NCBI RefSeq assembly: GCF_028736035.1
Contig: NZ_CP117866.1
Location: 1,488,001 to 1,552,000 of the forward strand
DNA length: 64,000 nt
Direction: 5' to 3'
Origin: Streptomyces sp. T12
GTDB taxonomy: Bacteria > Actinomycetota > Actinomycetes > Streptomycetales > Streptomycetaceae
The translations under genes were made by a program, and so were the position numbers. The notes beneath the pieces were generated by a model. It did no database searches and was not told where the DNA came from. It was given only the letters and a program-made list of their open reading frames with translations. Position 1 is the stretch's first letter; each line of letters opens with the position of its first letter. Below, one piece after another: positions 36,858 through 62,025 of the stretch.

Positions 36858-36911
36858 GGCCTCACTCCCAGTTCTGTCGGTGGACGTCGTTCCCCCCTAC
36901 GGGCTCGGCCG

Positions 36912-37832: not shown

Positions 37833-37901
37833 TGGCTGCGGCCCTTTCTCTCCCGCTCGGTCCTTCTCCTGCTTCGGCCTTCCCCCGCCGCGTCCGTCTC
37901 C

Positions 37902-39284
<1,383 letters not shown>

Positions 39285-39305
39285 GCCATACTCCGTGAGA
39301 TTGGC

Positions 39306-39335
39306 GGGGCGTGCCGAGCGGTCACGGCACGCCCC
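39306..39335 (-). terminator. Hairpin between glyA and sdaA
   Basis: GGGGCGTGCCG and CGGCACGCCCC form a perfect 11-bp stem with an 8-nt loop in the 67-bp gap. As it lies within what looks like one operon it may be a partial terminator or an mRNA-processing stem that lowers sdaA expression. Confidence 0.55.
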
Positions 39336-39351
39336 TGCGGGAGGGGGTCGG

Positions 39352-40608
39352 TTACAGGCCGGGGTACAGCGGGTGCTTGTCCGCCAGCGCCTTGACCCGG
39401 GCCTTGAGCGCTTCGGCGTCGTACGCCGGCTTCAGTGCCGCGGCGATGACGTCCGCGACCTCGGCGAAGTCCTCGGCCTGGAAGCCACGGGTGGCCAGGG
39501 CCGGGGTGCCGATGCGCAGGCCCGAGGTCACCATCGGCGGGCGCGGGTCGTTCGGGACGGCGTTGCGGTTGACCGTGATGCCGACCTCGTGGAGACGGTC
39601 CTCGGCCTGCTGGCCGTCCAGCTCGGACTCGCGCAGGTCGACCAGGATCAGGTGCACGTCCGTGCCGCCGGACAGCACGTTCACGCCGGCCTCACGGGCG
39701 TCGGCGGCCGTCAGGCGCTCGGCGAGGATGCGGGCGCCGTCGACCGTGCGGCGCTGGCGCTCCTTGAACTCCTCGCTCGCGGCGACCTTGAAGGAGACCG
39801 CCTTGGCCGCGATCACGTGCTCCAGGGGGCCGCCCTGGAAGCCCGGGAAGACGGACGAGTTCAGCTTCTTCGCGAAGGCCTGCTTGGCGAGGATGATGCC
39901 GCCGCGCGGGCCGCCCAGGGTCTTGTGGGTGGTGGAGGTGACGACGTCCGCGTACTCGACCGGGTTGGGGTGCAGGCCCGCCGCGACCAGACCGGCGAAG
40001 TGCGCCATGTCGACCCACAGGTACGCCTCGACCTCGTCGGCGATCCGGCGGAACTCGGCGAAGTCCAGCTGCCGCGGATACGCCGACCAGCCGGCGATGA
40101 TCACCTTCGGCCGGTGCTCCTTGGCGAGCCGCTCGACCTCGGCCATGTCCACGAGACCGGAGTCGTCCACGTGGTACGGGACCACGTTGAACTGCTTGCC
40201 GGAGAAGTTCAGCCGCATCCCGTGGGTGAGGTGACCGCCGTGCGCCAGGTCCAGTCCGAGGATGGTGTCGCCGGGCTGGGCGAGGGCGAACAGGGCGGCC
40301 TGGTTGGCGGAGGCGCCGGAGTGGGGCTGGACGTTGGCGTACTCGGCGCCGAACAGCTCCTTGACCCGGTCGATGGCGATCTGCTCGGCGACGTCGACGT
40401 GCTCACATCCGCCGTAGTAGCGCCGGCCCGGGTAGCCCTCGGCGTACTTGTTGGTGGCGACCGAGCCCTGCGCCTCCATGACCGCGACCGGCGCGAAGTT
40501 CTCGGAGGCGATCATCTCCAGGGTGGACTGCTGGCGCTCCAGCTCGGCGTCGAGCGCGGCGGCGATGGCCGGGTCCAGCTCGTGCAGGGGCTGGTTGAAC
40601 AGGGTCAT
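39352..40608 (-). CDS. glyA: Serine hydroxymethyltransferase
   Basis: A 418-residue PLP enzyme that makes serine from glycine and 5,10-methylene-tetrahydrofolate, the direction expected here. The Schiff-base lysine is in [16 protein letters not shown] near residue 228; [18 protein letters not shown] and [17 protein letters not shown] are the usual N-terminal segments. Full length. Its start overlaps the GcvH-like gene by ATGA. It consumes glycine and the methylene-folate made by dimethylglycine and sarcosine oxidases. Probably a second glyA dedicated to this pathway. Confidence 0.96.
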
Positions 40609-41042
40609 CGGCGGTCTCCTTGGGTGTGGGCACAGTGGGCGGCGTAGGCATCGGGGGTCAGCGCGCCGGCGATGTTCTCGACGCGCAGCCGGAACAGCCA
40701 GCCGCCGGTGTAGGGGGCGGCGTTGACGACGCCGGGGTCGTCGGCCAGCGCGGTGTTGACTTCCAGGACCCGGCCCGAGGCGGGGGCGTACAGGCCGCTG
40801 ACGGCGGTCAGTGACTCGATCCGCCCGCAGCTCTCCCCCGCCTCGACCCAGGAACCGACCGCGGGCAGACGGAGGTCGACCACATCACCGAGGGCCTTCG
40901 CCGCGAACGCGGTGATGCCGACGGTGGCGTTGCCCTCGTCCACGACGAGCCACTCGTGGTCCCAGGTGTAACGCAGGTGTCGCGGAATGCTCGTGTCGGT
41001 CTCCCCTGCGGATCCCCGGGAGAGTTGGGGCGCGGAGGTCAT
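40605..41042 (-). CDS. gcvH: GcvH-like protein lacking the lipoyl lysine
   Basis: A 145-residue protein with the glycine-cleavage H fold: [56 protein letters not shown] and [11 protein letters not shown]. In GcvH the lipoylated lysine lies in ES-V-K-A; here the codons read GAG TCA CTG ACC GCC, that is ESLTAV, with Thr for Lys. No neighbouring lysine can substitute, so it cannot carry lipoate. It also has a 15-residue N-terminal extension. It is in a coupled operon (4-nt overlaps on both sides) between the reductase and glyA. GcvT and GcvP are not in the window. Confidence 0.85.
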
Positions 41043-42220
41043 GACACGACGGCCGCGGCGGCGGGGACGAGGGTGCGGCGGAGCCGGTTGAAGAACTTCG
41101 GCTGGTTGAGGGAGAGCACGGCGACGGGGGTGCCCTCGCGCCGGTAGACGGCCGTGAAGGTGCGGCTGTCGATGTCGCCCTCGACGACCTCGGGCTCGGC
41201 ACCGGGGACGACGTATCCGGCGACCTGGATGCGGCTTTGGTACTGGTCGGACCAGAAGTACGGCGCGCTGAGCGGGGCGGCGGCCGGCACACCGGTCAGC
41301 AGTGTGCGGGCGGCGGTCTTCGCCTGCTCGGTGGCGTTGCTCCAGTGCTCGATGCGGGCGTGCCGTCCGGTGAACGGGTTGGGGCAGCGGGCGACGTCAC
41401 CGACGGCGACCACGCCTGGGATGCCGGTGGAACAGCCGGAGTCGCACACGACGCCGTCGTCCACCTGCACCCCGGAGCCGGCCAACCAGTCGGTGTTGGG
41501 CCGCACTCCCACACCGGCCACGACGATGTCGGCGGGCAGCACCCGCCCGTCCGCCAGCCGTACGCCCGTGACCCGGCCCTCGCCGATCAGTTCGGCCACA
41601 CCGGTTCCGCACAGCAGCTGAACCCCGTGATCACTGTGGAGCGAGGAGACCACCAGCCCCATCTCACGCCCGAGTTGGCGCTCCAGGGGTACGGGGAGCG
41701 CCTCGACGACGGTGACGTGGAGCCCGAGCCGGTGTGCGGTGGAGGCCACCTCGGCACCGATGAACCCGGCGCCGATGACGACGACCCGGGGCAGGCCGTC
41801 GAGCAGTTCGGCGCGCAGGGCCTGGGCGTCGTCCAGGGTGCGCAGGGTGTGGACGCCCGCCAGACCGTCGGTGCCGGGGAGAGTGCGGGGGGTGGCGCCG
41901 GTCGCGATGACGACACCGTCGGTGCGCACATGGCGTCCGCCGGCCAGGGTGACGGTGCGGGCGACGGAGTCGAGCCGCACGGCGCGCTCGCCGAGCAGCC
42001 ACTGCGCGTCCAGGATCTCGTACTCGTCCGCGTCGCCGAGCGCGAGCCCCTCGGCGTCGATGTCCCCCTTGAGGAAGTCCTTGGACAGCGGGGGTCGGTC
42101 GTAGGGGGTGTGGCGCTCCTCCCCCACGACGACGATCTCGCCGTCATAGCCCTCTGCGCGCAGCGCGCGGACCGTGCTCAGTCCTGCCAGCGACGCTCCG
42201 ACGACGGTGATGCTCCTCAT
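41039..42220 (-). CDS. FAD-dependent ferredoxin reductase, likely partner of the Rieske oxygenase
   Basis: A 393-residue pyridine-nucleotide-disulfide-type reductase: FAD motif ITVVGASLAGLSTVRALRAE, NAD motif VVIGAGFIGAEVASTAHRLG, the ATGATPRTLPG loop, second FAD site IPGVVAVGDVARCPN and a C-terminal reductase domain. Such enzymes pass NADH electrons to ferredoxins of Rieske oxygenases. It heads the operon reductase-gcvH-glyA-sdaA, whose promoter region holds the putative IclR operators. It is a good candidate for the reductase of GbcA at 45 kb, although no ferredoxin gene or domain is nearby. Confidence 0.85.
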   Translation of the reverse strand: MRSITVVGASLAGLSTVRALRAEGYDGEIVVVGEERHTPYDRPPLSKDFLKGDIDAEGLALGDADEYEILDAQWLLGERAVRLDSVARTVTLAGGRHVRTDGVVIATGATPRTLPGTDGLAGVHTLRTLDDAQALRAELLDGLPRVVVIGAGFIGAEVASTAHRLGLHVTVVEALPVPLERQLGREMGLVVSSLHSDHGVQLLCGTGVAELIGEGRVTGVRLADGRVLPADIVVAGVGVRPNTDWLAGSGVQVDDGVVCDSGCSTGIPGVVAVGDVARCPNPFTGRHARIEHWSNATEQAKTAARTLLTGVPAAAPLSAPYFWSDQYQSRIQVAGYVVPGAEPEVVEGDIDSRTFTAVYRREGTPVAVLSLNQPKFFNRLRRTLVPAAAAVVS

Positions 42221-42241: not shown

Positions 42242-42277
42242 GTCTCACATAACACAACGACATTCGCTATACGCAAC
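42242..42277. promoter_or_regulatory. Putative IclR operator pair upstream of the reductase operon
   Basis: Two 17-bp units 19 bp apart (starts 42242 and 42261). The second reads, on the minus strand, GTTGCGTATAGCGAATG; the first is weaker, GTTGTGTTATGTGAGAC. They lie 22-57 bp upstream of the ATG at 42220, overlapping the likely promoter. Same motif and spacing as at 52095, 53767, 53933 and 55241. Confidence 0.6.
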
Positions 42278-42344
42278 ATGCTTTCCGCGCGGTGCGGGCG
42301 TTGTCAAGGGAGGCGTCACATATCAATTCCTGATGATGCTTCAC

Positions 42345-42361
42345 GTTGCGCGATTCGCAAC
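42345..42361. promoter_or_regulatory. Perfect copy of the GTTGCG-N5-CGCAAC operator motif
   Basis: GTTGCGCGATTCGCAAC is the most symmetric copy in the window, with 6-bp arms and a 5-nt centre. It lies 125-141 bp upstream of the reductase start and 33 bp from the PP2C stop. No second unit is found 19 bp away. Confidence 0.6.
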
Positions 42362-42393
42362 CTACGCGGGACGGAGAATCCGAGAGTTCACGG

Positions 42394-45120
42394 TTACGGC
42401 GTCGGCTCGTCCCACTGGTCCAAGAGCAGGTCGCCCATGGCTTCGTCGAGCTCGGTCTCGGCGGCGTCCAGGCACTGCTCGCTCCAGATGACCTTGCCGC
42501 GATCGGTGTACCGGGTACCCCAGCGCCGGGCGAACTGGGCGACGAGGAACAGCCCTCGGCCGCCCTCGTCGGTGGTGGCCGCGCGGCGCAGATGCGGGGA
42601 CGTGCTGCTGCCGTCGGCGACCTCGCAGATCAGGCTGTCCCGGTCGTACAACAGCCGCAGGCAGATGGGATCGCCGCCGTAGCGGATGGCGTTGGTGACC
42701 AGTTCGCTGAGGATGAGCTCGGTGGTGAAGGCGATCTCGTCCAGGCCCCACTCCCGGAGCCGGCGGGCGCAGGCGGCACGGATGGGGCCGAGGACGGCGG
42801 GGTCGGAGGGTACGTCCCAGTCGGCGACCCGGTCCGGGTCGAGCCGTTCGGTGCGGGCCACCAGGAGGGCGATGTCGTCACGGGGGCGGTCGGGCAGCAG
42901 GGCGTCGAACACCGCCTGACAGTCCTGTTCCGGGGTCCGGTCGGGGTGCGCCAGGGCCTGCCTGAGGAGTTCGAGGCCGACGCCCATGTCCCGGTCGCGG
43001 TCCTCGACGAGCCCGTCGGTGTACAGGGCGAGCCGGGAGCCGTCGGGCAGCTGGAGTTCGGCGGTCTCGACCGGCAGGCCGGCGCCCAGGCCGAGCGGTG
43101 GTGAGACCGGGACGTCGGGGAACGAGACGGAGCCGTCGGGGTGGACCAGGGCGGGCCCGGGGTGGCCGGCCCGGGCGACCGTGCAGTGGCCGGAGACCGG
43201 GTCGTAGATCGCGAACAGGCAGGTGGCCCCGGTGATGGCCTCGCTCTCCCCGTCGCTGGTCTCCCTCTCGTCGATGCGCACCACCAGCTCGTCCAGGTGG
43301 CTCAGGAGCTCGTCCGGGGAGAGGTCGAGAGCACAGAAGTTGTGGACCGCGGTGCGCAGGCGGCCCATGGTCGCGGCCGCGTGCAGACCATGGCCGACGA
43401 CGTCGCCGACGACGAGGGCGACGCGGGCGCCGGGCAGCGGAATGACGTCGAACCAGTCCCCGCCGACCCCGGCCTGGGCGGGCAGATATCGGTAGGCCGC
43501 CTCCAGGCCCGACTGCTCGGGCAGACCGCGCGGCAGCAGGCTGCGTTGCAGGGTGACCGCCATGGTGTGCTCGCGGGTGAAGCGGCGGGCGTTGTCGACG
43601 GCGACCGCGGCACGCGCGGCCAGCTCCTCGGCGAAGGCGAGATCGTCCCGCGTGAACGGCTCGCGGTCCGAGCGCCAGAAGTCCACCATGCCGAGCACCG
43701 TGTCGCGGGCCTGCAACGGCACCGTGATCAGGGAGTGGATACCGAAGTCCAGCACGCGCCGTGCCCGCTCCGGATCCTGCGCGTGCCAGCCCGGCGCGTC
43801 GCTCAGATCGGGCAGCAGCACGGCGTGACCGGTGTGCAGGCCCTGCACCTGCGGCATGGTCGGCACGAAGGTGATCCGCTCCCCCGCCGGGATCAGCGGG
43901 TGATCGTCCCGGACGCCGCGTACGGCGATGCGGTCCATGGTGGGGCTCGCGTCGCCGTTCGGTTCCTCGCCCTGCCGGACCGCGTCCAGCAGCTCGACGG
44001 TGACGTAGTCGGCGAACCGGGGAACCGCGGTCTCGGCCAGTTCCTCGGCGGTGCGCACCACGTCCAGCGTGGTGCCGATGCGCACCCCGGCGTCGTAGAG
44101 CAGCTGTAGGCGTTCGCGGGCCACCTCGGCACGGCCCGCCAGGGCGCGCAGTTCGGTGGTGTCCCGCAGGGTGGCCACGCTCCCGCTCGGGGCGGTCGGC
44201 CGCAGGTTGACGGCCAGGAGCCGCTCCCCGGCCAGGATCACCTCGTCGGTGGCCACGCGGTCCGAGGTCAGCAGGGCGGTGGCACGCGGGGCCAGCCCGA
44301 TGTCGGTGACCCGTCGGCCTTCCCCGTCCTCGGGGAGGTCCAGCAGTCGGCGCGCCTCGTCGTTGGCCAGCAGCAGGCGCCCCTCGCCGCTGACGACGAC
44401 CACGCCCTCGCGTACCGAGTGCAGGACCGCGTCGTGGTGCTCGTACATCCGTGTCATCTCGGCCGGATCCAGACCATGGGTCTGCCGCCGCAGCCGCCGG
44501 CTCACCAGCGCCGTTCCGCCCGTGACCAGCGCCAGCCCGCCGACGGCGGAGCCGATCAGCAGCGGCAGCTGGTCCGTCACCTGCTCGTTGATGCTGCTGA
44601 GCGTGATGCCGACGGACACCAGCCCGACGACCTTGCCGTCGGTGTCGAAGACCGGAACCATCGAGTCCGCGGCACGGCCGATGCCGGGCGTGTCATAGGT
44701 CTCCTGGTGCACACGGCCGGCGAGCGCCTCGGCGTAGGAGCCGACGACGTGCTTGCCGATGAGGTTCGGGTCGGGGTGGGTCCAGCGGATGCCCTTCGTG
44801 TCGAACGCGATGATGTAGGCCACCCCGGAGTCCTTCCGGGCCGCTTCCGCCTGTGGCTGGAGCAGGGCGCTGGGGTCGGGGGACTTCATGGCGGCCAGCG
44901 TCCCCGGGGCATGCGCGAAGGTCTCGGCGCCGACGAGCGAGCGCTCGTTCGCCTCCCGGAGGCTCGCGTTCCGGGCCTGGAGCACAAGGGCCGTCAGCGC
45001 GGCGATCACCAGCAGCAGGACGACGGCCACCTGGAGGATGAACACCTGGCCCGCGACGCTGTGCACGCTCAGCATGGAGGGCAGACGTACCGAGGGTCGC
45101 CGCGATCTGGACCTGTCCAT
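42394..45120 (-). CDS. SpoIIE/PP2C-type phosphatase with sensor, PAS, GAF and ATPase domains
   Basis: A 908-residue membrane protein. Helix 26-47, an extracytoplasmic Cache-like sensor (about 50-175, GVAYIIAFDTKGIRWTHPDP), helix about 185-210, PAS (about 230-330), GAF (about 350-510), PP2C phosphatase (VGGDWFDVIPLPGARVALVV and DDIALLVAR) and a C-terminal RsbW-like ATPase (ELILSELVTNAIRYGG, GGRGLFLVAQFA). It probably controls an anti-sigma/anti-anti-sigma switch from an external signal. The Cache part is citrate/dicarboxylate-sensor-like. Its location inside the one-carbon island may be accidental. Stop codon is TAA, rare here. Confidence 0.9.
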   Translation of the reverse strand: MDRSRSRRPSVRLPSMLSVHSVAGQVFILQVAVVLLLVIAALTALVLQARNASLREANERSLVGAETFAHAPGTLAAMKSPDPSALLQPQAEAARKDSGVAYIIAFDTKGIRWTHPDPNLIGKHVVGSYAEALAGRVHQETYDTPGIGRAADSMVPVFDTDGKVVGLVSVGITLSSINEQVTDQLPLLIGSAVGGLALVTGGTALVSRRLRRQTHGLDPAEMTRMYEHHDAVLHSVREGVVVVSGEGRLLLANDEARRLLDLPEDGEGRRVTDIGLAPRATALLTSDRVATDEVILAGERLLAVNLRPTAPSGSVATLRDTTELRALAGRAEVARERLQLLYDAGVRIGTTLDVVRTAEELAETAVPRFADYVTVELLDAVRQGEEPNGDASPTMDRIAVRGVRDDHPLIPAGERITFVPTMPQVQGLHTGHAVLLPDLSDAPGWHAQDPERARRVLDFGIHSLITVPLQARDTVLGMVDFWRSDREPFTRDDLAFAEELAARAAVAVDNARRFTREHTMAVTLQRSLLPRGLPEQSGLEAAYRYLPAQAGVGGDWFDVIPLPGARVALVVGDVVGHGLHAAATMGRLRTAVHNFCALDLSPDELLSHLDELVVRIDERETSDGESEAITGATCLFAIYDPVSGHCTVARAGHPGPALVHPDGSVSFPDVPVSPPLGLGAGLPVETAELQLPDGSRLALYTDGLVEDRDRDMGVGLELLRQALAHPDRTPEQDCQAVFDALLPDRPRDDIALLVARTERLDPDRVADWDVPSDPAVLGPIRAACARRLREWGLDEIAFTTELILSELVTNAIRYGGDPICLRLLYDRDSLICEVADGSSTSPHLRRAATTDEGGRGLFLVAQFARRWGTRYTDRGKVIWSEQCLDAAETELDEAMGDLLLDQWDEPTP

Positions 45121-45190
45121 GCTTCAAGTATTGGCCGTCAATGTTCCGTCGCCCCCCTGCCCTGCCGGAACTCCGCACGACAGACCAATG

Positions 45191-45234
45191 GCCCGCCCAC
45201 CTGCCGGAGGGGCCGCAACAGCAGGTGGGCGGGC
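45191..45234 (-). terminator. Terminator hairpin of the gbcA operon
   Basis: GCCCGCCCACCTGC and GCAGGTGGGCGGGC form a perfect 14-bp stem with a 16-nt loop, 17 nt past the gbcA stop. It separates gbcA from the start region of the phosphatase gene. Confidence 0.75.
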
Positions 45235-45250
45235 GGTACCGGGGGTGGGA

Positions 45251-46384
45251 TCAGTGCGTGGGACGCACCTTCAGCTTGTTCTGGAGCCAGGTGTGGAACT
45301 CGCCGATGTGGTGCTCGCTGGGCACCAGCACGCCGCCCTTGGCGTACGCCTTCGAGCTCATCGCCGGCTGGGTGCGCTCACAGGCGTCGAAGTCCTGCTG
45401 GTTGACCCGGTGGAACAGCTCCACCGAACGGTCCACGTCCTTGCCGCTCTCCACGACGTGCGGCAGGTACAGCCAGTCGCACTCGACGACCGTGCGGTCG
45501 GGCGCCATCGGGTACATCCGGTGGAAGATCACGTGGTCGGGCACGAGGTTGATGAAGACCTGCGGCCGGACGGTGATCGCGTAGTAGCGGCGGTCCTGGT
45601 CGTCGGCGACGCCGGGGATGCGGTCCAGGCCCTCGGAGCCGTCGACGGTGAAGCCCTGGACGTCCTCACCGAACTCGGCGCCGTGGCCCACGTAGTACTG
45701 GGCGGCGTAGCCGTCCGCGAACTCGGGGAGCACCTCGGTGAGTTCGGGGTGGATGGTGGCGCAGTGGTAGCACTCCATGAAGTTCTCGATGACGAGCTTC
45801 CAGTTGGCCTTCACGTCGTAGGTGATGCGGCGGCCCAGCTTCAGGTCGTCTATGCCGTACCGCTCGATCGACTCCAGGTCGCCGAGCCGCTCGACGATCG
45901 CGCCCTGCACGTCGGCCTCGAAGGACGGCGGCTCGTCGGCGAGGCACACCCACACATAGCCGAGCCACTCCCGCACATGGACGTTGATCAGGCCGTACTC
46001 GGTCCGGTCGATGTCCGGCATCGACGTCAGGTTGGGCGCGGCGACCAGCTTGCCGTCCAGGCCGTAGGTCCAGGCGTGGTACGGACACTGGAAGGCCCGC
46101 TTGACCTCGCCGGACTCCTCGGTGCAGAGCTTGGCGCCGCGGTGCCGACAGATGTTGAGGAAGCCCTTGATCGAGCCGTCCCGCGAGCGGGAGATCAGTA
46201 CGCTCTCGCGGCCCACCTGGTAGGTGCGGAAGGCACCGGGCTTGTCCAGCTCGGCGGCGCGAGCCACACAGAACCACATGGCCTCGAAGACCCGCTCCTG
46301 CTCCTGGGCGAAGACCTCGGTATCGGTGTAGTACTCACCGGACAGCGTGGGGATCAGGCTGGGCGGCAGCTTCGTAATGGTCAT
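45251..46384 (-). CDS. gbcA: Rieske non-heme iron oxygenase, probable glycine betaine monooxygenase GbcA
   Basis: A 377-residue Rieske oxygenase alpha subunit. The 2Fe-2S ligands are in CRHRGAKLC and CPYHAWTYG (near residues 78-105); the mononuclear iron ligands follow in NFMECYHCATIHPEL near residue 205. It should oxidise a methyl group of glycine betaine, releasing formaldehyde and dimethylglycine. The assignment over related carnitine or stachydrine oxygenases rests on the adjacent dimethylglycine and sarcosine oxidase genes. It is last in a minus-strand operon from mscR and ends at a strong hairpin. Electrons probably come from the reductase at 41-42 kb. Confidence 0.82.
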   Translation of the reverse strand: MTITKLPPSLIPTLSGEYYTDTEVFAQEQERVFEAMWFCVARAAELDKPGAFRTYQVGRESVLISRSRDGSIKGFLNICRHRGAKLCTEESGEVKRAFQCPYHAWTYGLDGKLVAAPNLTSMPDIDRTEYGLINVHVREWLGYVWVCLADEPPSFEADVQGAIVERLGDLESIERYGIDDLKLGRRITYDVKANWKLVIENFMECYHCATIHPELTEVLPEFADGYAAQYYVGHGAEFGEDVQGFTVDGSEGLDRIPGVADDQDRRYYAITVRPQVFINLVPDHVIFHRMYPMAPDRTVVECDWLYLPHVVESGKDVDRSVELFHRVNQQDFDACERTQPAMSSKAYAKGGVLVPSEHHIGEFHTWLQNKLKVRPTH

Positions 46385-46403
46385 CTCGTCACCTTCGGAA
46401 ATG

Positions 46404-47618
46404 TCAGACGCGCACGCGGCGAGGGTCGAACAGGGCGATGGGGTGCTCGGTGGTGCCTTCGGTGGCCAGATCGGCGAGGATCTCGCCGATGACGGGGACG
46501 AACTTGAACCCGTGGCCGGAGAATCCGCAGGCCACCGTCACCTGCGGATGCTCGGGGTGCCGTGCCAGGACGAAGTGCTCGTCCGGGGTGTTGGCGTACA
46601 TGCAGGCCGCGGCCTTGAGGTAGCGGCCGGGCAGGGTGGGGATGCGCGGGCGCAGGTACGCGGCCATGGCCGCGATCTCGTCCGGGTGGCTCCGGCGGTC
46701 GAGGTGGTCGGGGTCGCAGGAATCGCCCTTGCGGAAGAAGGCGACCTTGGCGCCGCCGTCGGGGCCGTCGGGGCCGTCGAGCGAGGGGAAGCCGTAGATC
46801 TGGGTGCCGTCCGGGTCCTCCCAGATGTACACGGGGTGCCGGTCGGCGGTGAACGGGCGGGTTCCGCCCTCCGGTTGGAACCAGTACATGACCTGACGCT
46901 CCACCGTCACGCGCACACCGAGGTCGGTCAGGAGCCTGGGCGCCCAGGCCCCGGGGGCGATGACCAGCCGGTCGGCGGTGTAGGCGCCGCGGTCGGTGAC
47001 CACCCAGGCTCTGCCGCCCGGGCCGTCGGCCTCCCAGCCGAGGACGAGTTCCGCGAAGTGGAGAACTGCTCGTCGAGGAACGTACATTAGCTCGATCGCG
47101 TGATGATCGACTGCCGGACTTGCGGCGTTGTGGGCTGTTCGGGCTACGGTGATCGAGCGATCTGGGACGCCGGGTACGGCGCCAGCGTGCGGGGCCCCCG
47201 CTCCACCGGAGTGATGGTTCGGGGCCTCCCCGTTACCTCTGGCCGTACCCATTGGCCAGGTCGCACAGGGAACCGGCCTCCTGGGCCCGGACCACGGACA
47301 GGATCCGTGTCGCCGACCCGGGGCTGAGTACGCCGGGGATCCAGTGCGCCCAAGACCGTTCGGGGCGTGCGGCTGAGCGGACTCGCTCCTGCTCAGTCCA
47401 AAGGAACGGTTGTGCTCGGTGGTCATGCCCTGACACCACGAGCGGTAGGTAGGCCGGGTCCTCGAAGTATGCCTGGCGGTAATGCGGGATGTGCCGTGGC
47501 TGGAGCCGAGGTCGTGGGCCAGGCCGAGTACGCGCTGACCGCGGGCGGTGAGGGGATGGGCGGCTGCGCTGCCCATCCCGCCCAGGCCGACGACGATCAC
47601 ATCGTACGAAGTGGCCAT
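46404..47618 (-). pseudogene. SolA-like (N-methyl amino acid/sarcosine) oxidase, chimeric remnant
   Basis: The N-terminus (MATSYDVIVVGLGGMGSAAA to LGSSHGTSRIT) and the C-terminal 210 residues (LHFAELVLGWEADG to FDPRRVRV) are those of a monomeric sarcosine oxidase/SolA FAD protein. About 140 residues between them match nothing in the family. From about 47475 the true frame (RQAYFEDPAYLPLV) is off the ATG frame. Bases 47411-47447 nearly repeat 48043-48080 of the dimethylglycine oxidase gene (YRSW..MTTEH). The frame stays open by chance, so it could be called a 404-residue protein, but the FAD-enzyme core is destroyed. Confidence 0.65.
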
Positions 47619-47677
47619 GTGTCCATCTCCTGGAAACCTTGCCGATGAGGGTTGGTGCTGCCGGCGCACGGGCCGGT

Positions 47678-51926
<4,249 letters not shown>

Positions 51927-52094
51927 GGTCGATCTCCTCGTCGAGGGACGGCCGAATGCGATCTCCGGGATCTTCGGCCTGATGTTCTGGATGGCGGGAG
52001 GGCGTCGATCTCCCCCTGGAGCGGTCGACGCGGGGAGGGAGAGAACTTCTCCGGAGGCCCGGGGGGGGAACCCGGTGGCCGAGCCGCCGCTCAT

Positions 52095-52130
52095 GTTGCA
52101 CATTGCGCAACATTCATCGCTATAAGCAAC
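52095..52130. promoter_or_regulatory. Putative IclR operator pair upstream of the mscR-gbcA operon
   Basis: Unit 1 GTTGCACATTGCGCAAC (52095-52111) is nearly symmetric. Unit 2, on the minus strand GTTGCTTATAGCGATGA (52130-52114), is centred 19 bp further. This is the same motif and spacing as at the other promoters of the island. Confidence 0.65.
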
Positions 52131-52250
52131 GGCCGGACCAAACTGTCTCCCTGTGGACACCCACTGTCAAGGGGTTGGCCGAGCGAAGTTGCCATCCCGT
52201 CGGAAAACGGACGCCGGACACCCGCGGACAGGGTGCCTGTCGCGCACAGT

Positions 52251-52292
52251 CATGCGGCCGGCCGACCTCCTCGGAGGCCGGCCGGCCGCATG
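52251..52292 (-). terminator. Terminator hairpin after the MFS gene
   Basis: CATGCGGCCGGCC and GGCCGGCCGCATG form a perfect 13-bp stem; the 16-nt interior can form a small CCTC/GAGG stem. It lies 26 nt after the MFS stop and insulates it from mscR. Confidence 0.7.
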
Positions 52293-52317
52293 CCGTCGGG
52301 TGCGGTGAACTACCCGG

Positions 52318-53727
52318 TCAGGAGCGTCCGAGCCCGCTTTCGCGCAGGCTGTCGCGACGCCCCTCGTCGGCCGCCGCGGGCGGCGCGGAGCCGGGCACGG
52401 CACTGGTCTCCGCAAGGGTGCGCCCCCGTGTCTCCTCGGCCCACGCGAAGGACACCAGCCAGCCCACCGCGGTGATCCCGGCGCCGATCAGCATGGTCGT
52501 ACCGATGCCCAGCCGATCCAGGGAGATCGGCAGCAGATACGTACCGGCGGCGGCGCCGATCCGGCTGATCGAGGTCGCCACGCCTCCCGCAGTGGCCCGG
52601 ATACCGGTGGGGAACAGCTCGTTGGGATACGTCCACTCCAGCACCGTGGGGCCGCCCGACAGGAGGGCGTAGGCGCAGAAGCACACGATGACCACCGCGA
52701 TGGGGAGCGCGTTGCCGCCGCCGAGCACCGCGAGCGGCACCACCATCAGGGCGAACGACCACACGATGACGGGGCGGCGCCCCACCCGGTCCACCAGCCG
52801 CAGCGCGGGGATACAGCCCAGCACGAACACGACGCTGATCAGCGCCGAGCCCAGGTTGCTCTCGTTGCCCTCCCCGAGCCCGAAGGAGCCCAGGACGGAG
52901 GGGCCGAAGGTGTACAGGGCGAACATCGGCGTGATCTGACACATGTAGAACAACCCGCAGAACAGCGTTCGCCGCAGATAAGTGCCCTGGAACAGGTCAC
53001 GGAACCCGCTCTGTTCCACCGACTGCTCGGCCGCCGACGCCGCGAGCAGTTCCTCGACCGGTACGGTGCGATCGAGGGCTTTCCTGATCGCCTTCTGGGC
53101 GTCGGCGGTACGGCCCTTGTTCACCAGCCACAGTGGCGACTCCGGCGTACCGATCCGCATCAGCAGGATCAGGGCGCTCAGTACGGCACCCGAGGCGAGC
53201 ATCCACCGCCAGGAGCCGTTGCCCGCGATCTCGGCCATCACATAGCCGACCACATAGGCGGCCGCCGCACCGACGTACCAGGCCAGGATGAGGATGCCGA
53301 GCAGTCGGCCCCGGTGTTTGTTCGGCACCCATTCGGCCAGCAGCGACGTCGCGATCGGGTAGTCGGCCCCGATGGCCATGCCGAGCACGAAGCGCAGCAC
53401 GACGAACTGCCAGGTCTCGGTGGCGAACACCGACAGCAACGAGCCGCCGACGAGCACCGCCAGGTCGATGGTGTACATCGCCTCGCGGCCGAGCCTGTCG
53501 GTGACGGGGCCGAAGAACAGACCTCCCACGAAGATGCCGACCAGGGCGGCGGCACCGATGAGGCTCTCGTCCCCGGTACTCAGGTTCAGCTCGTTGCTCA
53601 TGCCGATGAGCGCGACGCCGATGATGCTGAGCAGATAGCCGTCCAGGAACGGGCCGCCGGCACAGGCCCAGGTGAGTTTTCGGTGGAACTTGTTCAGGGG
53701 TGCCTCGTCGACGGCACGGATGGACAT
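52318..53727 (-). CDS. MFS transporter, putative betaine/metabolite:proton symporter
   Basis: A 469-residue major-facilitator protein with 12 hydrophobic helices. Sugar-porter-type motifs are present: GPVTDRLGREAMYTIDL after helix 2, the PESPLWLV segment after helix 6 and DRVGRRPVIVWS after helix 8. N-terminus NKFHRKLTWACAGGPFLDGY. Family members carry sugars, aromatic acids or osmolytes; in this context a glycine betaine or related substrate is inferred. ATG 53727 gives the natural start. Two operator units lie 40-75 bp upstream, and a hairpin follows. It diverges from the cupin gene. Confidence 0.88.
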   Translation of the reverse strand: MSIRAVDEAPLNKFHRKLTWACAGGPFLDGYLLSIIGVALIGMSNELNLSTGDESLIGAAALVGIFVGGLFFGPVTDRLGREAMYTIDLAVLVGGSLLSVFATETWQFVVLRFVLGMAIGADYPIATSLLAEWVPNKHRGRLLGILILAWYVGAAAAYVVGYVMAEIAGNGSWRWMLASGAVLSALILLMRIGTPESPLWLVNKGRTADAQKAIRKALDRTVPVEELLAASAAEQSVEQSGFRDLFQGTYLRRTLFCGLFYMCQITPMFALYTFGPSVLGSFGLGEGNESNLGSALISVVFVLGCIPALRLVDRVGRRPVIVWSFALMVVPLAVLGGGNALPIAVVIVCFCAYALLSGGPTVLEWTYPNELFPTGIRATAGGVATSISRIGAAAGTYLLPISLDRLGIGTTMLIGAGITAVGWLVSFAWAEETRGRTLAETSAVPGSAPPAAADEGRRDSLRESGLGRS

Positions 53728-53766
53728 CTGAACTCCCGGAATGGGGGACGGGGGACCCTGAGCGAC

Positions 53767-53802
53767 GTTGCGACTCAGAAAACGCGTTTCTTCATACGCA
53801 AC
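53767..53802. promoter_or_regulatory. Putative IclR operator pair upstream of the MFS gene
   Basis: GTTGCGACTCAGAAAAC (53767-53783) and, on the minus strand, GTTGCGTATGAAGAAAC (53802-53786), with centres 19 bp apart, 40-75 bp upstream of the MFS ATG. Confidence 0.6.
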
Positions 53803-53932
53803 CGAACATCGATAGCGTGTCGGAGTCAAGACGGGGCACTGAACCTCTTACGACTCCCACGGATGCAGCCCCGCACCCTCACCGCGCAGGCACCCCCGGG
53901 CCCTTGACGATGCCTCACCTCGTCCGCATGAT

Positions 53933-53968
53933 GTTGCACATTGCGATGCCTGTTCTGCATAGAGAAAC
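53933..53968. promoter_or_regulatory. Putative IclR operator pair upstream of the cupin gene
   Basis: GTTGCACATTGCGATGC (53933-53949) and GTTCTGCATAGAGAAAC (53952-53968) are 19 bp apart, 41-76 bp upstream of ATG 54009. Confidence 0.58.
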
Positions 53969-54008
53969 AATGCCCTGTCGCAAACCCAGGAAGATCGGAC
54001 TTGGCACC

Positions 54009-54370
54009 ATGACGATCAGCTTGAACGGCGGCTCACTGCCCTCCGACGAACTGGAGGGCCGGAAGGACCCCGCACCGCCGACGGCCACACCGCTGGGCGA
54101 CCCCGTGCCGACCCGCAGCCGGCGGATCTTCGCCTCGGACGACGACAGGATCGTCAGCGGCACCCGGGAGTGCGAACCCGGGGAGTCCGCATGGGACTTC
54201 GCCGACCGCGGGGGGTCATCCACGTGCTGTCCGGACGCATGACCTGCGAGGAGAAGGTCGGCACGACGACCAAGGTCGGCCCGGGCACCACCGTGGTGTT
54301 CCCCACGGGCCGGCAGGGCACGTGGACGATCCACGAGACGCTGCGCAAGGTCTTCGTCATCTACAAGTAG
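54009..54370 (+). pseudogene. Cupin-domain protein, frameshifted in a G tract
   Basis: ATG 54009 opens a cupin_3 (DUF861)-type protein: MTISLNGGSLPSDELEGR ... CEPGESAWDFADRGG. The rest of the cupin (GVIHVLSGRMTCEEK to HETLRKVFVIYK) continues in another frame to the stop at 54370. One extra G in the GGGGGG run at 54211-54216 would restore a 121-residue protein. The indel is either a true mutation or a sequencing error in the homopolymer. It is preceded by an operator pair and followed by an IclR gene, so it belongs to the regulon. Its role is unknown; related cupins bind small metabolites. Confidence 0.7.
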
Positions 54371-54407
54371 ACGTCCACAGGGGGACCGCCATGCGTGAGG
54401 TCACGCG

Positions 54408-55214
54408 ATGACAGACGCCTTGCACCAGCCGGAGCACTCACACCAGCCGGAGTCCCCGGTGCAGTCGGTCGACCGGGCCGTGGGCATTCTCGAATTCCTG
54501 GGCCGCCACGAAGAGGCGGGCGTCACGGACATGGCCGCCGCACTCGGGGTGCACAAGTCCACCGCGTCCCGGCTGGCCACCGCCCTGGAGGTGCGCGGAC
54601 TCATCGAGCAGACGGAGGAGCGGGGCAAGTACCGCCTCGGCCTCGGCCTGATCCGTCTGGCCGGTGCCGCCACGGTCCGAGTCGATCTCTCCCAGCAGAG
54701 CCGCCGGGTGTGCGAGCAGCTGGCGGACCAGGTCGCCGAGACCATCAACCTGGCCATCCTCGACCACGGCGCCGCCATCAACATCGACCAGGTGCTCGGC
54801 CCCTCGGCCATCACCACCCACAACTGGCTCGGCCGGCGCACGCCGCTGCACGCGACGTCCAGCGGCAAGATACTACTGGCCCATCTGCCCGAGTCCGAGC
54901 TCGCGAGCAGACTCACAACGCCCCTGGAGCGCTTCACACCGCGCACCGTCACCGACCCCGAGACCCTCCGGGCCCAGCTGAAGCGCGCCCGCGCGAACGG
55001 CTGCGCCTACAGCGCCGAGGAGTTCGAGAAGGGGCTGAACGCGGTGGCCGCACCGGTCTTCACCTTCAACGGGGAGATGCTGGCGGCACTCAGCGCCTCG
55101 GGGCCGTCCTTCCGGCTGACCGAGCAGCGACTGCCGGAGGTCTCCGCCATGGTGCGGTCGGCCGCCGAGGAGATCTCGGAGCGTCTGGGCCACTTCCGCC
55201 GGACCACCCCTTGA
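54408..55214 (+). CDS. IclR-family transcriptional regulator 1
   Basis: A 268-residue regulator. The winged helix lies near residues 18-75 (VQSVDRAVGILEFLGRHEEA, LGVHKSTASRLATALEVRG), then the IclR effector domain with GRRTPLHATSSGKILLAHLP near residue 150. It is clearly paralogous to the IclR protein at 56293. It follows the cupin gene by 37 nt and has no operator copy of its own, so it may be expressed from the cupin promoter. A likely regulator of the betaine genes, perhaps binding a pathway intermediate. Confidence 0.92.
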   Translation: MTDALHQPEHSHQPESPVQSVDRAVGILEFLGRHEEAGVTDMAAALGVHKSTASRLATALEVRGLIEQTEERGKYRLGLGLIRLAGAATVRVDLSQQSRRVCEQLADQVAETINLAILDHGAAINIDQVLGPSAITTHNWLGRRTPLHATSSGKILLAHLPESELASRLTTPLERFTPRTVTDPETLRAQLKRARANGCAYSAEEFEKGLNAVAAPVFTFNGEMLAALSASGPSFRLTEQRLPEVSAMVRSAAEEISERLGHFRRTTP

Positions 55215-55240
55215 CCACGCGGTCACCGCCATTCGATTAT

Positions 55241-55276
55241 GTTGCGTATCGCTCATCGTGTTGCGTAATTCGCACC
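55241..55276. promoter_or_regulatory. Putative IclR operator pair upstream of purU
   Basis: GTTGCGTATCGCTCATC (55241-55257) and GTTGCGTAATTCGCACC (55260-55276) are direct tandem units 19 bp apart, 21-56 bp before ATG 55297. Within the pair GTTGCGTA is repeated exactly. Confidence 0.65.
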
Positions 55277-55296
55277 ACCCGACGACGGAGGAAGGC

Positions 55297-56169
55297 ATGT
55301 CTCCTCGACCGCGGCCCGGCCGTGAGTTCGTCCTCACCCTTTCCTGCCCCGACCAGGCCGGTCTCGTCCACGGCGTGACCACCTTTCTCGTGAGCCACTC
55401 GGGCAACATCCTGGAGAGCCAGCAGTTCGACGACCGATTGCAGGACCGCTTCTTCATGCGGGTGCACTTCGACGTCTCGGACCCCGGCATCTCCCTGGAG
55501 GACCTGCGCACCGGCTTCGGCCCGGTGAGCCAGGCGTACGGGATCACCTGGCAGCTGCACGACGCCTCGACCCCGACGCGCACGCTGATCATGGTGTCGA
55601 AGTTCGGCCACTGCCTGAACGACCTGCTGTTCCGCAAGTCCACGGGCGCACTCAACATCGAGATCCCGGCGATCGTCTCCAACCACCGGGACTTCGAACC
55701 GCTGGCGGAGAGCTACGGCATCCCCTTCCACCACATCCCGGTGACCAAGGACACCAAGGCCCAGGCCGAGGCGCGGCTGCTGGAGCTGGTGCACGAGCTG
55801 GAGGCCGACCTGGTGGTGCTGGCCCGCTATATGCAGATCCTCTCCGACGACCTGTGCAAGCAGCTCGACGGCCGGGCCATCAACATCCACCACTCGTTCC
55901 TGCCGAGCTTCAAGGGCGCCAAGCCGTACGTCCAGGCACACCAGCGCGGCGTGAAGCTCGTCGGGGCCACGGCGCACTACGTCACGTCCGACCTCGACGA
56001 GGGCCCGATCATCGAGCAGGAAGTCGTCCGCGTGGACCACTCGCGCGACCCCGACGATCTGGTCACCATGGGCCGTGACGTCGAGGCCCAGGTGCTCGCC
56101 CGCGCCGTCGAGTGGCACAGCGAGAGCCGGGTGCTGGTGAACGGACACTGCACCGTGGTCTTCCGCTGA
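55297..56169 (+). CDS. purU: Formyltetrahydrofolate deformylase
   Basis: A 290-residue enzyme that splits 10-formyltetrahydrofolate to formate and tetrahydrofolate. An N-terminal ACT domain (LTLSCPDQAGLVHGVTTFL) is followed by a formyl transferase-like catalytic domain with LVVLARYMQILSDDLC, INIHHSFLPSFKGAKPYVQA (catalytic His) and GATAHYVTSDLDEGPIIEQE (catalytic Asp). ATG 55297 has a GGAGGAAGG ribosome site. With the operator pair in its promoter it is probably co-induced with betaine breakdown to drain one-carbon units and regenerate free folate. Confidence 0.95.
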   Translation: MSPRPRPGREFVLTLSCPDQAGLVHGVTTFLVSHSGNILESQQFDDRLQDRFFMRVHFDVSDPGISLEDLRTGFGPVSQAYGITWQLHDASTPTRTLIMVSKFGHCLNDLLFRKSTGALNIEIPAIVSNHRDFEPLAESYGIPFHHIPVTKDTKAQAEARLLELVHELEADLVVLARYMQILSDDLCKQLDGRAINIHHSFLPSFKGAKPYVQAHQRGVKLVGATAHYVTSDLDEGPIIEQEVVRVDHSRDPDDLVTMGRDVEAQVLARAVEWHSESRVLVNGHCTVVFR

Positions 56170-56284
56170 CCGGGTGGGCCGTGCGACCATGCGGGCGGCC
56201 GGATCCGGCCATCCCTGCCCGTCTTCCACGGCCCCCGCGGGACCCGTCGCGCCCCTTGGAGACCCACGGAGACCCATGCGTATA

Positions 56285-56321
56285 GTTGCGCCATGAGCAA
56301 CTACACCGCAGATAGCGAAAC
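56285..56321. promoter_or_regulatory. Operator over the start codon of IclR gene 2
   Basis: GTTGCGCCATGAGCAAC (56285-56301) is near-symmetric and contains the ATG (56293-56295). A weaker second unit ACCGCAGATAGCGAAAC follows at 56305-56321, at 20-bp spacing. Binding here would block transcription start or elongation, implying autorepression. Confidence 0.55.
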
Positions 56322-57090
56322 AGCGGCTCCCGCGGTGAACGGGGTGCAGTCCGTCGACCGCGCCGTCAGCGTCCTGGAGATCCTCGCCCAGCGCGGCGAG
56401 GCGGGCGTCAGCGAGGTGGCCGCCGAGATCGACGTCCACAAGTCGACCGCGTTCCGGCTGCTCGGGGCACTGGAGGCGCGCGGCCTCGTCGAGCAGACGG
56501 CCGAGCGGGGCAAGTACCGGCTGGGCTTCGGGATCGTACGCCTGGCCGGCGCGGTCACGGGCCGCCTCGACATCACCCAGCAGGGCCGGCCGGTGTGCGA
56601 GCGCCTCAGCGAGGAGATCGGCGAGACCGTCAACATCGCCGTCCTTCAGGAGCACTTCGCGGTCAACCTGTATCAGGTACGCGGTCCGGGCGCCGTCGGC
56701 ACGCACAACTGGGTCGGCCAGCTCACCCCGGTGTACGCCACGTCGAGCGGCAAGATCCTGCTGGCCCATCTGTCGGCGACGGAGCGCGACGCCGTGCTCG
56801 GGGCGTCCACGGTGCAGAAGCTGACGCCGCACACCCTGACGGCCAGGACGAAGCTGGAGAAGAACCTCGCCGAGGCACGGGAGCGCGGGTACGCCGTGAC
56901 GCTGGAGGAGCTTGAGATCGGACTCCAGGCCCTGGCGGCCCCGATCCGCTCCCGCGACGGCGATGTCATCGCCGCACTCAGCGCCTCCGGCCCCGCGTAC
57001 CGCTTCACCGAGGAACGTATCCACGAAATCGCACCCGTGCTGATCAGCGGCGCGGACGAGATCAGCCGCCGGATGGGCTATCTGGGCTGA
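56293..57090 (+). CDS. IclR-family transcriptional regulator 2
   Basis: A 265-residue regulator with helix-turn-helix near residues 18-75 (VQSVDRAVSVLEILAQRGEA, IDVHKSTAFRLLGALEARG) and effector domain (TPVYATSSGKILLAHLS). It resembles IclR 1 over its full length. Its ATG lies in the best local copy of the operator motif, which suggests autoregulation and makes it the leading candidate for the protein that binds the motif. The transcript may be leaderless, since GCGTATAGT at about 56278-56286 could be a -10. It ends at a bidirectional hairpin. Confidence 0.92.
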   Translation: MSNYTADSETAAPAVNGVQSVDRAVSVLEILAQRGEAGVSEVAAEIDVHKSTAFRLLGALEARGLVEQTAERGKYRLGFGIVRLAGAVTGRLDITQQGRPVCERLSEEIGETVNIAVLQEHFAVNLYQVRGPGAVGTHNWVGQLTPVYATSSGKILLAHLSATERDAVLGASTVQKLTPHTLTARTKLEKNLAEARERGYAVTLEELEIGLQALAAPIRSRDGDVIAALSASGPAYRFTEERIHEIAPVLISGADEISRRMGYLG

Positions 57091-57115
57091 GGGTCCACAG
57101 AGGCTCTCAGCCCAG
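57082..57115. terminator. Bidirectional terminator between IclR 2 and folP
   Basis: CTGGGCTGAG and CTCAGCCCAG form a perfect 10-bp stem with a 14-nt loop that spans both stop codons of the convergent genes. Confidence 0.7.
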
Positions 57116-58039
57116 TGGCGACCGTACCGACGTCGCCGCCTCGACGCCCCAGCGGGCCGTCACGCGCACCGCGTCCGCCGTCGACGCGACGTCGTGCACG
57201 CGCAGACACCAGACGCCCTGTGCGGCGGCGAGCACGGACACGGCGGTGGTCGCGGCATCGCGCAGCCGCGCGGGACGGGGCTGTCCCGTCGTCCGGTCCG
57301 CCAGCAGACTGCCGAGGAACGACTTGCGTGACGCGCCCACGAGGACGGGATGTCCCAGGGCCATGACGTCCCCGAGGCGGCCCAGCAGCTCCCAGTTGTG
57401 GTCGGGCGTCTTGGCGAAGCCCAGCCCAGGGTCGACGACCAGGCAGTCGGGCGCTATCCCCGCCTCCAGCGCGGCGTCGATCCTCAGCCGCAGCTCGTCG
57501 AGCACATCGGTGACGACGTCGTCGTAGACCGCGTTCGCCTGCATGTCGGCGGAGTGTCCACGCCAGTGCATCAGCACGTACGGCGTGCCTGCCCGGGCCA
57601 TCAGCGGCAGCATCTCGGGATCGGCGAGGCCCCCTGAGACGTCGTTGACCAGCCGCGCACCCGCGTCCAGCGCGCGTGCGGCGACCTCGGCCCGCATGGT
57701 GTCGACGCTCACGATCGCGCCCGCCGCGGTGAGTTCCCGGACGACGGGCAGGACGCGTCGCAGCTCCTCCTCGACCGGCGGGCGTGCCGCGCCGGGGCGG
57801 GTCGACTCGCCGCCCACGTCCACGATGTCAGCGCCCTGTTCGAGCAGCGCGAGCCCGTGTGCGACGGCCGCGTCGGCGGCGAACGACAGCCCGCCGTCGG
57901 AGAACGAGTCCGGCGTCACGTTCACGATGCCCATGACCAGGGTCCGGCCGGGGCGTGGCAGGCCGTGGGGGTGGAGTACCGGTGTTCCCGGGCGGGGTGA
58001 AGTGGTGGCGTGGGCGGTGGTGGTCGCGGTGGCGGTCAC
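57107..58039 (-). CDS. folP: Dihydropteroate synthase
   Basis: A 310-residue TIM-barrel enzyme joining p-aminobenzoate to dihydropterin diphosphate in folate synthesis. Motifs: LVMGIVNVTPDSFSDGG near residue 35, DIVDVGGESTRPGA near 70, NDVSGG near 132, DPGLGFAKTPDHNW near 200 and GASRKSFLG near 235. GTG 58039 is the likely start after a basic N-terminal lead. It is downstream of the sox operon but behind a strong hairpin, so it may have its own promoter. Likely a second folP that supports folate supply for methyl-group transfer; this is inferred from location. Confidence 0.88.
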   Translation of the reverse strand: MTATATTTAHATTSPRPGTPVLHPHGLPRPGRTLVMGIVNVTPDSFSDGGLSFAADAAVAHGLALLEQGADIVDVGGESTRPGAARPPVEEELRRVLPVVRELTAAGAIVSVDTMRAEVAARALDAGARLVNDVSGGLADPEMLPLMARAGTPYVLMHWRGHSADMQANAVYDDVVTDVLDELRLRIDAALEAGIAPDCLVVDPGLGFAKTPDHNWELLGRLGDVMALGHPVLVGASRKSFLGSLLADRTTGQPRPARLRDAATTAVSVLAAAQGVWCLRVHDVASTADAVRVTARWGVEAATSVRSPLG

Positions 58040-58084
58040 AGGCGTCCGACTTTCGATGCGTATGACGAGAGATGCTGCACAAAG

Positions 58085-58119
58085 CCCTGTGGGAGCTCCT
58101 GAGCGGAGCTCCCACAGGG
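58085..58119 (-). terminator. Terminator of the sox operon
   Basis: CCCTGTGGGAGCTC and GAGCTCCCACAGGG form a perfect 14-bp stem with a 7-nt loop, 30 nt past the soxG stop, followed on the minus strand by CTTTGT. Confidence 0.82.
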
Positions 58120-58149
58120 GCCGACGGGGTGCGGGCCCGTCGGGTTTTC

Positions 58150-58752
58150 TCAGAGGTACTCGGTCGCCGCGTCGAGCAGCCAGTCCGCCAGATAGCCGGC
58201 GAACGTCGAGCGCACCAGGACCCAGAATCCGGCCCTGGGTTCGTCCCGGGCGACCAGGACGACCTGGGTGCGGCCCAGTGTCGTCTGGGCGCAGCGGCCG
58301 GCGCCGAAGGCCCGCGGGTGCAGGTCCAGCGGACAGCCGTGGGCCAGCAGGTCGTGGGCGCGGGGGCCCGTGACGAGGAGTGTGGTGCGCTGCGCGGAGA
58401 CGTCGGTGACCGAGACGGTCTCGTCCCCCGCGGCCTCCCGGATCCGGCTCTCCAGGTCCCGCTCGCTCCCCGGCGGTCCCACCAGCAGCCACTCGTCCGG
58501 ACCGAGCCACAGCGCGGTCAACTCCCCCGCGCGTACGACGGTGTTCGGCTGGAGCGGCAGTTGCAGGTCCAGTGCGAGCCCGACGGCTTCCGCCGCCGCT
58601 CCCTTGCCGTCGAGACGCACGTTGAGCTGGGCCAGGAAGGGGAGTTCGGCCAGCCGGATCGCACCCCCGGACGCGTGTGTCGCGGTGGCCAGACGGTCGG
58701 CGACATGCGACAGCGGGCTGCGGAGCGGGGCGGTAAGGGCGGTGTCAGCCAT
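58150..58752 (-). CDS. soxG: Sarcosine oxidase gamma subunit
   Basis: A 200-residue subunit of heterotetrameric sarcosine oxidase with the family pattern LPFLAQLNVRLD, LWLGPDEWLLVGPPG, VTDVSAQRTTLLVTGPRAHD and FWVLVRSTFAGYLADWLLDA. It resembles a GcvT-like fold and helps bind the tetramer. ATG 58752 overlaps the soxA stop by 8 nt. It is the last gene of the operon before the hairpin. Confidence 0.9.
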   Translation of the reverse strand: MADTALTAPLRSPLSHVADRLATATHASGGAIRLAELPFLAQLNVRLDGKGAAAEAVGLALDLQLPLQPNTVVRAGELTALWLGPDEWLLVGPPGSERDLESRIREAAGDETVSVTDVSAQRTTLLVTGPRAHDLLAHGCPLDLHPRAFGAGRCAQTTLGRTQVVLVARDEPRAGFWVLVRSTFAGYLADWLLDAATEYL

Positions 58753-62014: not shown

Positions 62015-62025
62015 GGTTCGGCTCC

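Follow-up and report, generated by a model that had tools for sequence, protein, structure and literature searches.

In Pseudomonas the genes of betaine or sarcosine catabolism are controlled by GbdR and SouR, which are regulators of the AraC type. These proteins, as well as SoxR of Bacillus thuringiensis, are activators that lie outside the IclR family and recognize other sites, and in these respects they differ from the regulon predicted here, with which they share the concern with betaine or sarcosine catabolism. The control of such genes by B. thuringiensis SoxR is reported in PMC4941409.

Sites of the form discussed in this work are known from group 1 of the IclR family, for which the main text of the survey of Suvorova and Gelfand (2021, PMC8222616) gives 17-bp palindromes of the GTT-11-AAC type with the consensus GTTYCRYW3RYGRAAC. 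For 94 groups the same text reports tandem sites at distances of 18-22 nt and ties them to tetramer binding, so that the architecture of the present operator is, in itself, already known. The likeness extends to the GTT and AAC ends, the length of 17 bp, the presence of two palindromes approximately two helix turns apart, the location near the gene start and the tetramer binding that was proposed for the group 1 sites. The difference concerns base 4, which is G here (GTTGC) instead of the C or T of the subgroup consensus (GTTYC); G is found at this position in 83% of 123 sites from other genomes, when read both ways. The contact table of the survey gives no clear fit for this G, and the contact predicted there between His27 and G at positions 10/22 does not fit either, the His being invariant in the proteins under study and the base being T (in our own numbering). 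A further likeness is with TphR of Comamonas (terephthalate), whose motif in Table 1 of PMC8222616 is TTTTTGCGCATAGCGCAAAAA with a core, TTGCGCATAGCGCAA, nearly equal to the present unit; TphR differs in that it serves another pathway in another phylum and is listed with one palindrome. The words betaine, choline and sarcosine do not occur in the main text of the survey, and searches of the openly accessible literature on IclR proteins and on the use of betaine or sarcosine by Streptomyces gave no title or abstract about this operator or regulon. The statement in an initial sequence-only reading of this DNA that no published operator of this form was known for streptomycete betaine use agrees with these searches, with the qualification that tandem spacing is a known family trait (PMC8222616). 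The betaine operator and its regulon are apparently undescribed and new, of a familiar kind.

The paired operator in the window

The window, i.e. the whole stretch of 64,000 nt that was analysed (G000:C1:1488001-1552000 of the 11.46-Mb genome; positions without the prefix C1 are window positions), holds six copies of a 36-bp operator, each formed by two 17-bp palindromes (GTTGCGYATWRCGCAAC) with a 2-bp linker, so that the units start 19 bp apart. The strongest half-sites are the outer ones. The motif copies listed by the sequence-only reading are present, except for a 'weak copy' at 56305, which fails, and its count of four pairs at exactly 19 bp was right in the spacing and low by one, the pairs being five (42242/42261, 52095/52114, 53767/53786, 53933/53952 and 55241/55260). 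The copy at 42345 is a perfect palindrome and forms the right unit (42345-42361) of a sixth, lopsided pair with a weak left unit. The pair proposed at the start of iclR2 (56285/56305) had to be abandoned, as its units are 20 bp apart and the corresponding 36-mers score 2.7, −3.4 and −12.8 in the three registers. A single 17-bp unit with one mismatch is found over the iclR2 start codon (56285..56301), the second unit in the 19-bp register not being good, and the matching site at a third paralogue, iclR3, is a full 36-bp operator with a score of 35.6.

The first operator (42242..42277; score 37.0 with the matrix derived from other genomes, which is described below and also gave the other scores of this and the next paragraph) precedes the gbcB1-gcvH-glyA-sdaA run and has a TTGACA −35 box at 42302-42307 on the minus strand. 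The second (42326..42361; 29.5) belongs to the same promoter region at a distance of 84 bp, and no TTGAC box was found near it. The run begins with the gene of a gbcB1-like ferredoxin/NAD reductase (41039..42220, minus strand), followed by gcvH, glyA (SHMT), sdaA (serine dehydratase), a radical-SAM/MoaA-like gene and fdhD (35997..41042, minus strand), which probably belong to the same operon, the gaps between neighbours on the one strand being shorter than 70 bp. A gene for a SpoIIE-type phosphatase with Cache/GAF domains (42394..45120, minus strand) lies inside the betaine island, between gbcA1 and gbcB1, and is also found near gbcA1 in several relatives. The operator at 52095..52130 (42.8; TTGACA at 52165-52170, minus strand) precedes mscR-MBL-dmgdh-solA-gbcA1, of which mscR (50841..51926, minus strand) encodes S-(hydroxymethyl)mycothiol dehydrogenase (TIGR03451, 677.8 bits, the match beginning at residue 82 of the ORF as listed; the listed start is too far upstream and the inferred one is the GTG at 51926), and the others (45251..50844, minus strand) an MBL-fold hydrolase, a dimethylglycine-dehydrogenase-like protein, an N-methyl amino acid oxidase-like protein and the Rieske oxygenase GbcA1.

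The MFS transporter gene (52318..53727, minus strand; inferred start ATG at 53727, the listed ORF beginning further upstream) has its operator at 53767..53802 (36.0), with TTGACT at 53824-53829 on the minus strand. The next operator (53933..53968; 31.8) faces a cupin-like gene and iclR1, with TTGACG at 53904-53909 and a −10-like CATGAT that abuts it. The cupin-like gene itself (53996-54397, between the MFS gene and iclR1) seems to be split across two reading frames, owing either to an error in sequencing or to disruption of the gene; Pfam gave no match on the scanned piece, and the cupin label comes from inspection of the sequence. The operator of purU1, a gene followed by iclR2, is at 55241..55276 (39.7; TTGACC at 55211-55216, with GATTAT abutting the operator), and purU1 (55297..56169, plus strand; ATG at 55297 inferred) encodes a formyltetrahydrofolate deformylase (TIGR00655, 346.5 bits). 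Further on, a gene for a folP-like dihydropteroate synthase with an N-terminal extension (57107..58510, minus strand) is followed by an ORF with SoxD and sarcosine oxidase alpha domains (58745..63022, minus strand), whose listed start overruns into soxB (62026-63258, other frame).

That the paired motif is a chance or compositional repeat was considered in the light of several counts. A loose 17-bp pattern, in which as many as 3 mismatches were allowed, does not exceed chance in the window (45 matches observed versus 59.6 expected) and thus proves nothing by itself, so that it was rejected as evidence; the bare pair GTTGC-N26-GCAAC with at most one mismatch is marginal (4 versus 1.84 expected, a value of 4 being reached by 10/100 shuffles), its genome-wide count being 253 versus 170 for the reversed control; and a very AT-rich stretch approximately 9 kb to the left of the window (G000:C1:1479247-1479310) gave false matrix matches (18.5 with the first five-pair matrix and 12.4 with a later one). 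Against such a repeat stands the result with a weight matrix for which 116 distinct operators of other genomes served as training set, S. regalis being excluded as too close a relative: in the window it finds exactly six sites with a score of at least 10, all between 29.5 and 42.8, while in 60 Markov simulations of the window the peak was 20.4 and 2/60 reached 15, although this is a return test and not a wholly independent one, as it was the own-genome matrix that had located the 116 sites used for training. The phase also speaks against it, with 132 pairs of 17-bp-unit matches (up to 60 bp apart) at exactly 19 bp and only 12 at the next commonest distance, a count that is partly by construction because the 36-bp matrix had supplied the sites from which the unit model was taken. 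The spacing falls within the IclR range (two palindromes with 18-22 nt between centres). By taking also into account the island-only placement and the conservation in several families presented below, a chance origin is refuted, its remaining probability being close to nil.

The island beyond the window and in other genomes

A matrix built from the five window pairs revealed ten more 36-bp operators and one 35-bp variant past the window, leading to a total of 16 plus the variant in this genome, and the operator island spans 46 kb, reaching G000:C1:1576437, 24 kb past the window. The additional operators precede dmgA2 (C1:1554692), BADH (C1:1560505), purU2 (C1:1560648), gbcA2 (C1:1567160), gbcB2 (C1:1568772 and 1568873), a second mycothiol-dependent formaldehyde dehydrogenase gene (C1:1570729; TIGR03451, 698.7 bits) and BCCT (C1:1572824), or lie between betA and iclR3 (C1:1565062 and 1565136); the 35-bp variant, with an 18-bp spacing, precedes fdhF (C1:1576402-1576437). 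The 16 own sites have leave-one-out scores of 22.9-39.9, and a background of 94 kb of the same genome contains no site at 15 or above and one at 12 or above. The 11.46-Mb genome was then scanned with a profile built from the 16 sites by sequence only (E≤10, 150 of 699 first-look candidates scored, both strands listed), and 28/29 matches fall inside the 46-kb island, the only other being at C1:3717460 with an E value of 3.9. The island matches cover 15/16 own sites, the profile missing the training site at 1568873 as well as the 35-bp variant; own sites match by construction, and what is informative is that almost no matches occur elsewhere. An equal density of the pairs at unrelated sites, which the sequence-only reading had named as an outcome that would speak against it, is thus at variance with the distribution of the scored candidates.

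The genes of the island comprise uptake functions (BCCT, choline-type ABC, MFS), catabolic ones (betA, BADH, two GbcA, 82% identical, with their reductases, dimethylglycine dehydrogenases, sarcosine oxidase) and those of C1 and amino acid metabolism (SHMT, GcvH, serine dehydratase, FolD, two PurU). The island also contains two mycothiol-formaldehyde dehydrogenases, both accompanied by an MBL hydrolase, as well as an FdhF/YdeP oxidoreductase, FdhD, a MoaA-like protein and genes resembling folP and pabB. The reactions from choline or betaine to pyruvate and from C1 units to formate belong to established pathways. On the basis of these gene assignments the island would convert choline into pyruvate, the methyl groups being passed via folate or formaldehyde to formate, which would then be oxidized, and the scope of the regulon would be this route together with C1/formate disposal.

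Second operators are found at recurring distances, namely 82-84 bp (6 cases, gbcB1, in this genome and its relatives), 101-103 bp (9 cases, gbcB2, here at G000:C1:1568772-1568908, and a gbcA2/purU1 divergence) and, at badh divergences, 128 bp (4 cases) and 143-144 bp (6 cases). These distances may indicate a looping role or merely reflect the layout of the promoters.

Conservation was studied with a matrix derived from this genome only (score of at least 18, 40-60 kb around IclR genes) in 20 other sequences, namely 7 genomes of the same genus and 13 named loci (Streptomyces, Streptacidiphilus, Sphaerimonospora and a Nocardioides MAG), genes in the relatives being labelled by their best tblastn matches. 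The sequence-only reading had named a lack of conservation in related species as a finding against itself; the pairs are conserved in these relatives, with 123 operators found, of which 119 lie near the starts of island-gene homologues. Taken together with the 16 own sites, 133/139 operators are located between −60 and 330 bp relative to the start of such a homologue, and the 6/139 outside this range include 2 own sites with listed ORFs that start too far upstream. Six outer 20-kb stretches of the relatives (of which L073 still includes the island end) and three proteobacterial IclR loci (30-33% identical) gave no match at 17 or above. At E≤1 the operator model matched in 12/12 named genomes, with best E values of 4.8e-4 to 0.0104, a result that does not enter the counts given here.

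The distribution among the 81 genomes of the same genus was determined by defining as an IclR clade member a best match of at least 247 bits, the best matches of the remaining genomes being below 140. The clade is present in 36/81 and GbcA (at least 68% identity) in 31/81, 30 of which also have the clade (Fisher p 4e-15), and the operator model (E≤0.1, 85 candidates scored per genome, stricter filters) matches in 26/36 genomes with the clade versus 0/45 without it (Fisher p 2e-13); both p values are too small, because genomes of one genus are related and not independent. Four genomes with GbcA and the clade lack a model match (G006, G011, G032 and G062) and have matrix matches of 23-31 beside iclR. 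In G058 GbcA is present and the clade absent, and its 4.1-kb locus has no match at 14 or above. The regulon of the clade is not always a betaine one, since six genomes contain the clade without a GbcA at 68% or above. An operator-like site adjoins the clade iclR gene in three genomes lacking GbcA, at L041 (G061; 28.7), L044 (G003; 22.9) and L050 (G017; 19.7). Model matches were also observed on other contigs or at a distance from the main island: those at G013:C1:551217-553729 mark a second badh-purU2-iclR set, that at G064:C1:1227082 an iclR with a formaldehyde dehydrogenase gene, and two more are at G063:C119:508197 and G022:C65:2814.

In a class-wide draw, in which scoring covered 9 candidates per genome, 70/296 genomes gave a clade-like match (E≤1e-50). 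Among the 30 loci examined, matches at 14 or above were present in 14/14 of the own family, 5/5 of family f26, 2/2 of f18 and 1/1 of f23, and in 0/8 IclR loci of f17 within approximately 1.5 kb of the gene. Operators lie further off from iclR in two Sphaerimonospora loci and a Nonomuraea locus. Two matches were found in an Arthrobacter plasmid locus and one in the Nonomuraea locus, both drawn from the best 8 of 2298 plasmid-search records. In G150, G166, G210, G240 and G329, where a single clade match was found among the 9 candidates scored per genome, operators are present on both sides of iclR.

IclR paralogues and promoter geometry

Candidate readers of the operator are IclR1 (268 aa; 54408..55214, plus strand; Pfam HTH_IclR and IclR_C) and IclR2 (265 aa; 56293..57090, plus strand), both with PF09339 and PF01614 above cut-off, corresponding to the N-terminal HTH and the C-terminal effector domain. 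The two related IclR genes of the sequence-only reading are therefore in place, and to them a third paralogue outside the window has to be added, iclR3 (approximately G000:C1:1565163-1565960, start inferred), which is divergent from betA. IclR2 and IclR3 are 78% identical, and IclR1 is 50% identical to IclR2 and 54% to IclR3. The best PDB relative of an 8-member IclR profile is 1mkm (E 1.1e-41), and the recognition helix HKSTAxRL is invariant in 8/8 aligned clade members. The best NCBIfam match of IclR1 and IclR2 is NF045644, BhcR, the IclR regulator of the beta-hydroxyaspartate cycle; an assignment to BhcR was rejected, the scores of 192.4 and 187.4 bits being far below the cut-off of 350. 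One of the two operators between betA and iclR3 overlaps the inferred iclR3 start codon (GTG AGC AAC), which suggests self-control of iclR3.

It may be argued that an unrelated regulator reads the operator and that the IclR genes are mere neighbours, by considering that IclR binding is a prediction, that eight f17 IclR loci have no nearby operator and that six genomes have the clade without GbcA. However, the form and spacing of the operator match IclR sites, with 17-bp GTT...AAC units in 19-bp tandem, the co-occurrence is 26/36 versus 0/45 genomes, operators adjoin iclR on both sides in the five genomes in which one clade member was found, and the HKSTAxRL helix is invariant in all eight members, so that a regulator of another kind is very improbable. 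The same operator form, co-occurrence and flanking operators support the IclR regulon at betaine and one-carbon promoters that the sequence-only reading had predicted.

As to the promoters, by examining 50 bp on each side a TTGAC pointing at the operator is found for 12/16 own operators, starting 27-40 bp before it (29-32 bp in 10/16), with approximately 0.6 expected by chance at the local rate of 4.4e-4 per position and strand; it is absent within 50 bp at 4/16. Over all sequences, TTGAC lies at −33 to −28 in 65/162 distinct oriented operators, among which orthologous promoters are not independent. It is followed by a 17-18 bp spacer and by a −10-like hexamer that ends 0-3 bp before the operator and has the second A and the last T conserved in 75-100% of the aligned groups. 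A protein bound directly after the −10 box would cover the start site, which is the geometry of a repressor. By contrast, activation, in which an IclR protein at the operator would recruit RNA polymerase in the presence of the inducer, could be put forward by noting that activators and dual regulators also occur among IclR proteins (main text of PMC8222616) and that no TTGAC box is visible at four of the 16 own operators; the TTGAC position in 10/16 sites and the −10-like hexamer ending 0-3 bp before the operator, an arrangement in which a bound protein would prevent initiation, make it improbable. Rfam at gathering threshold gave no match in window positions 34000-64000 or in loci L020/L021, leaving control at the RNA level without Rfam support in these regions.

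The paired motif is, thus, very probably the operator of a clade of IclR-family repressors that would control choline and glycine betaine catabolism. The sequence itself shows the operator with its phasing, gene set, conservation, link to the IclR clade and usual position behind a −10-like box, whereas binding by these proteins, repression, the inducer and the assignment of the three paralogues to sites are what we infer from these features. According to this scheme two dimers (a tetramer) would sit on the two 17-bp palindromes, on the same helix face, immediately behind the −10 box in promoters of the primary-sigma type, where initiation would be blocked. A pathway metabolite (choline, betaine, dimethylglycine or a C1 product) would bind to the C-terminal domain and release the repressor, so that uptake, demethylation, glycine-to-pyruvate conversion and methyl-group disposal would rise jointly, the latter consisting of mycothiol-formaldehyde oxidation, conversion of formyl-THF to formate and formate oxidation.

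Parallel gene sets under one code (two GbcA, two reductases, two PurU and two mycothiol-formaldehyde dehydrogenases) invite an extension of the repressor model in which one operator code would serve all three IclR paralogues and these would assemble into mixed tetramers at the paired site, one 36-bp element integrating two signals. A different paralogue could then occupy each 17-bp half of the operator, and a methylated substrate could, for instance, be one of the signals and a C1 by-product the other. We regard this extension as speculative and rather unlikely.

The present analysis provides a testable map of how these actinobacteria may turn on the use of choline and glycine betaine as food, with approximately 17 operators in one genome, a model able to locate operators in related families, and candidate regulators identified by name. 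Betaine demethylation is joined with the genes of folate, the molybdenum cofactor and formaldehyde/formate in what is likely one regulated unit, and the three sister regulators facing one operator sequence offer a clean system for the division of work among paralogous repressors.
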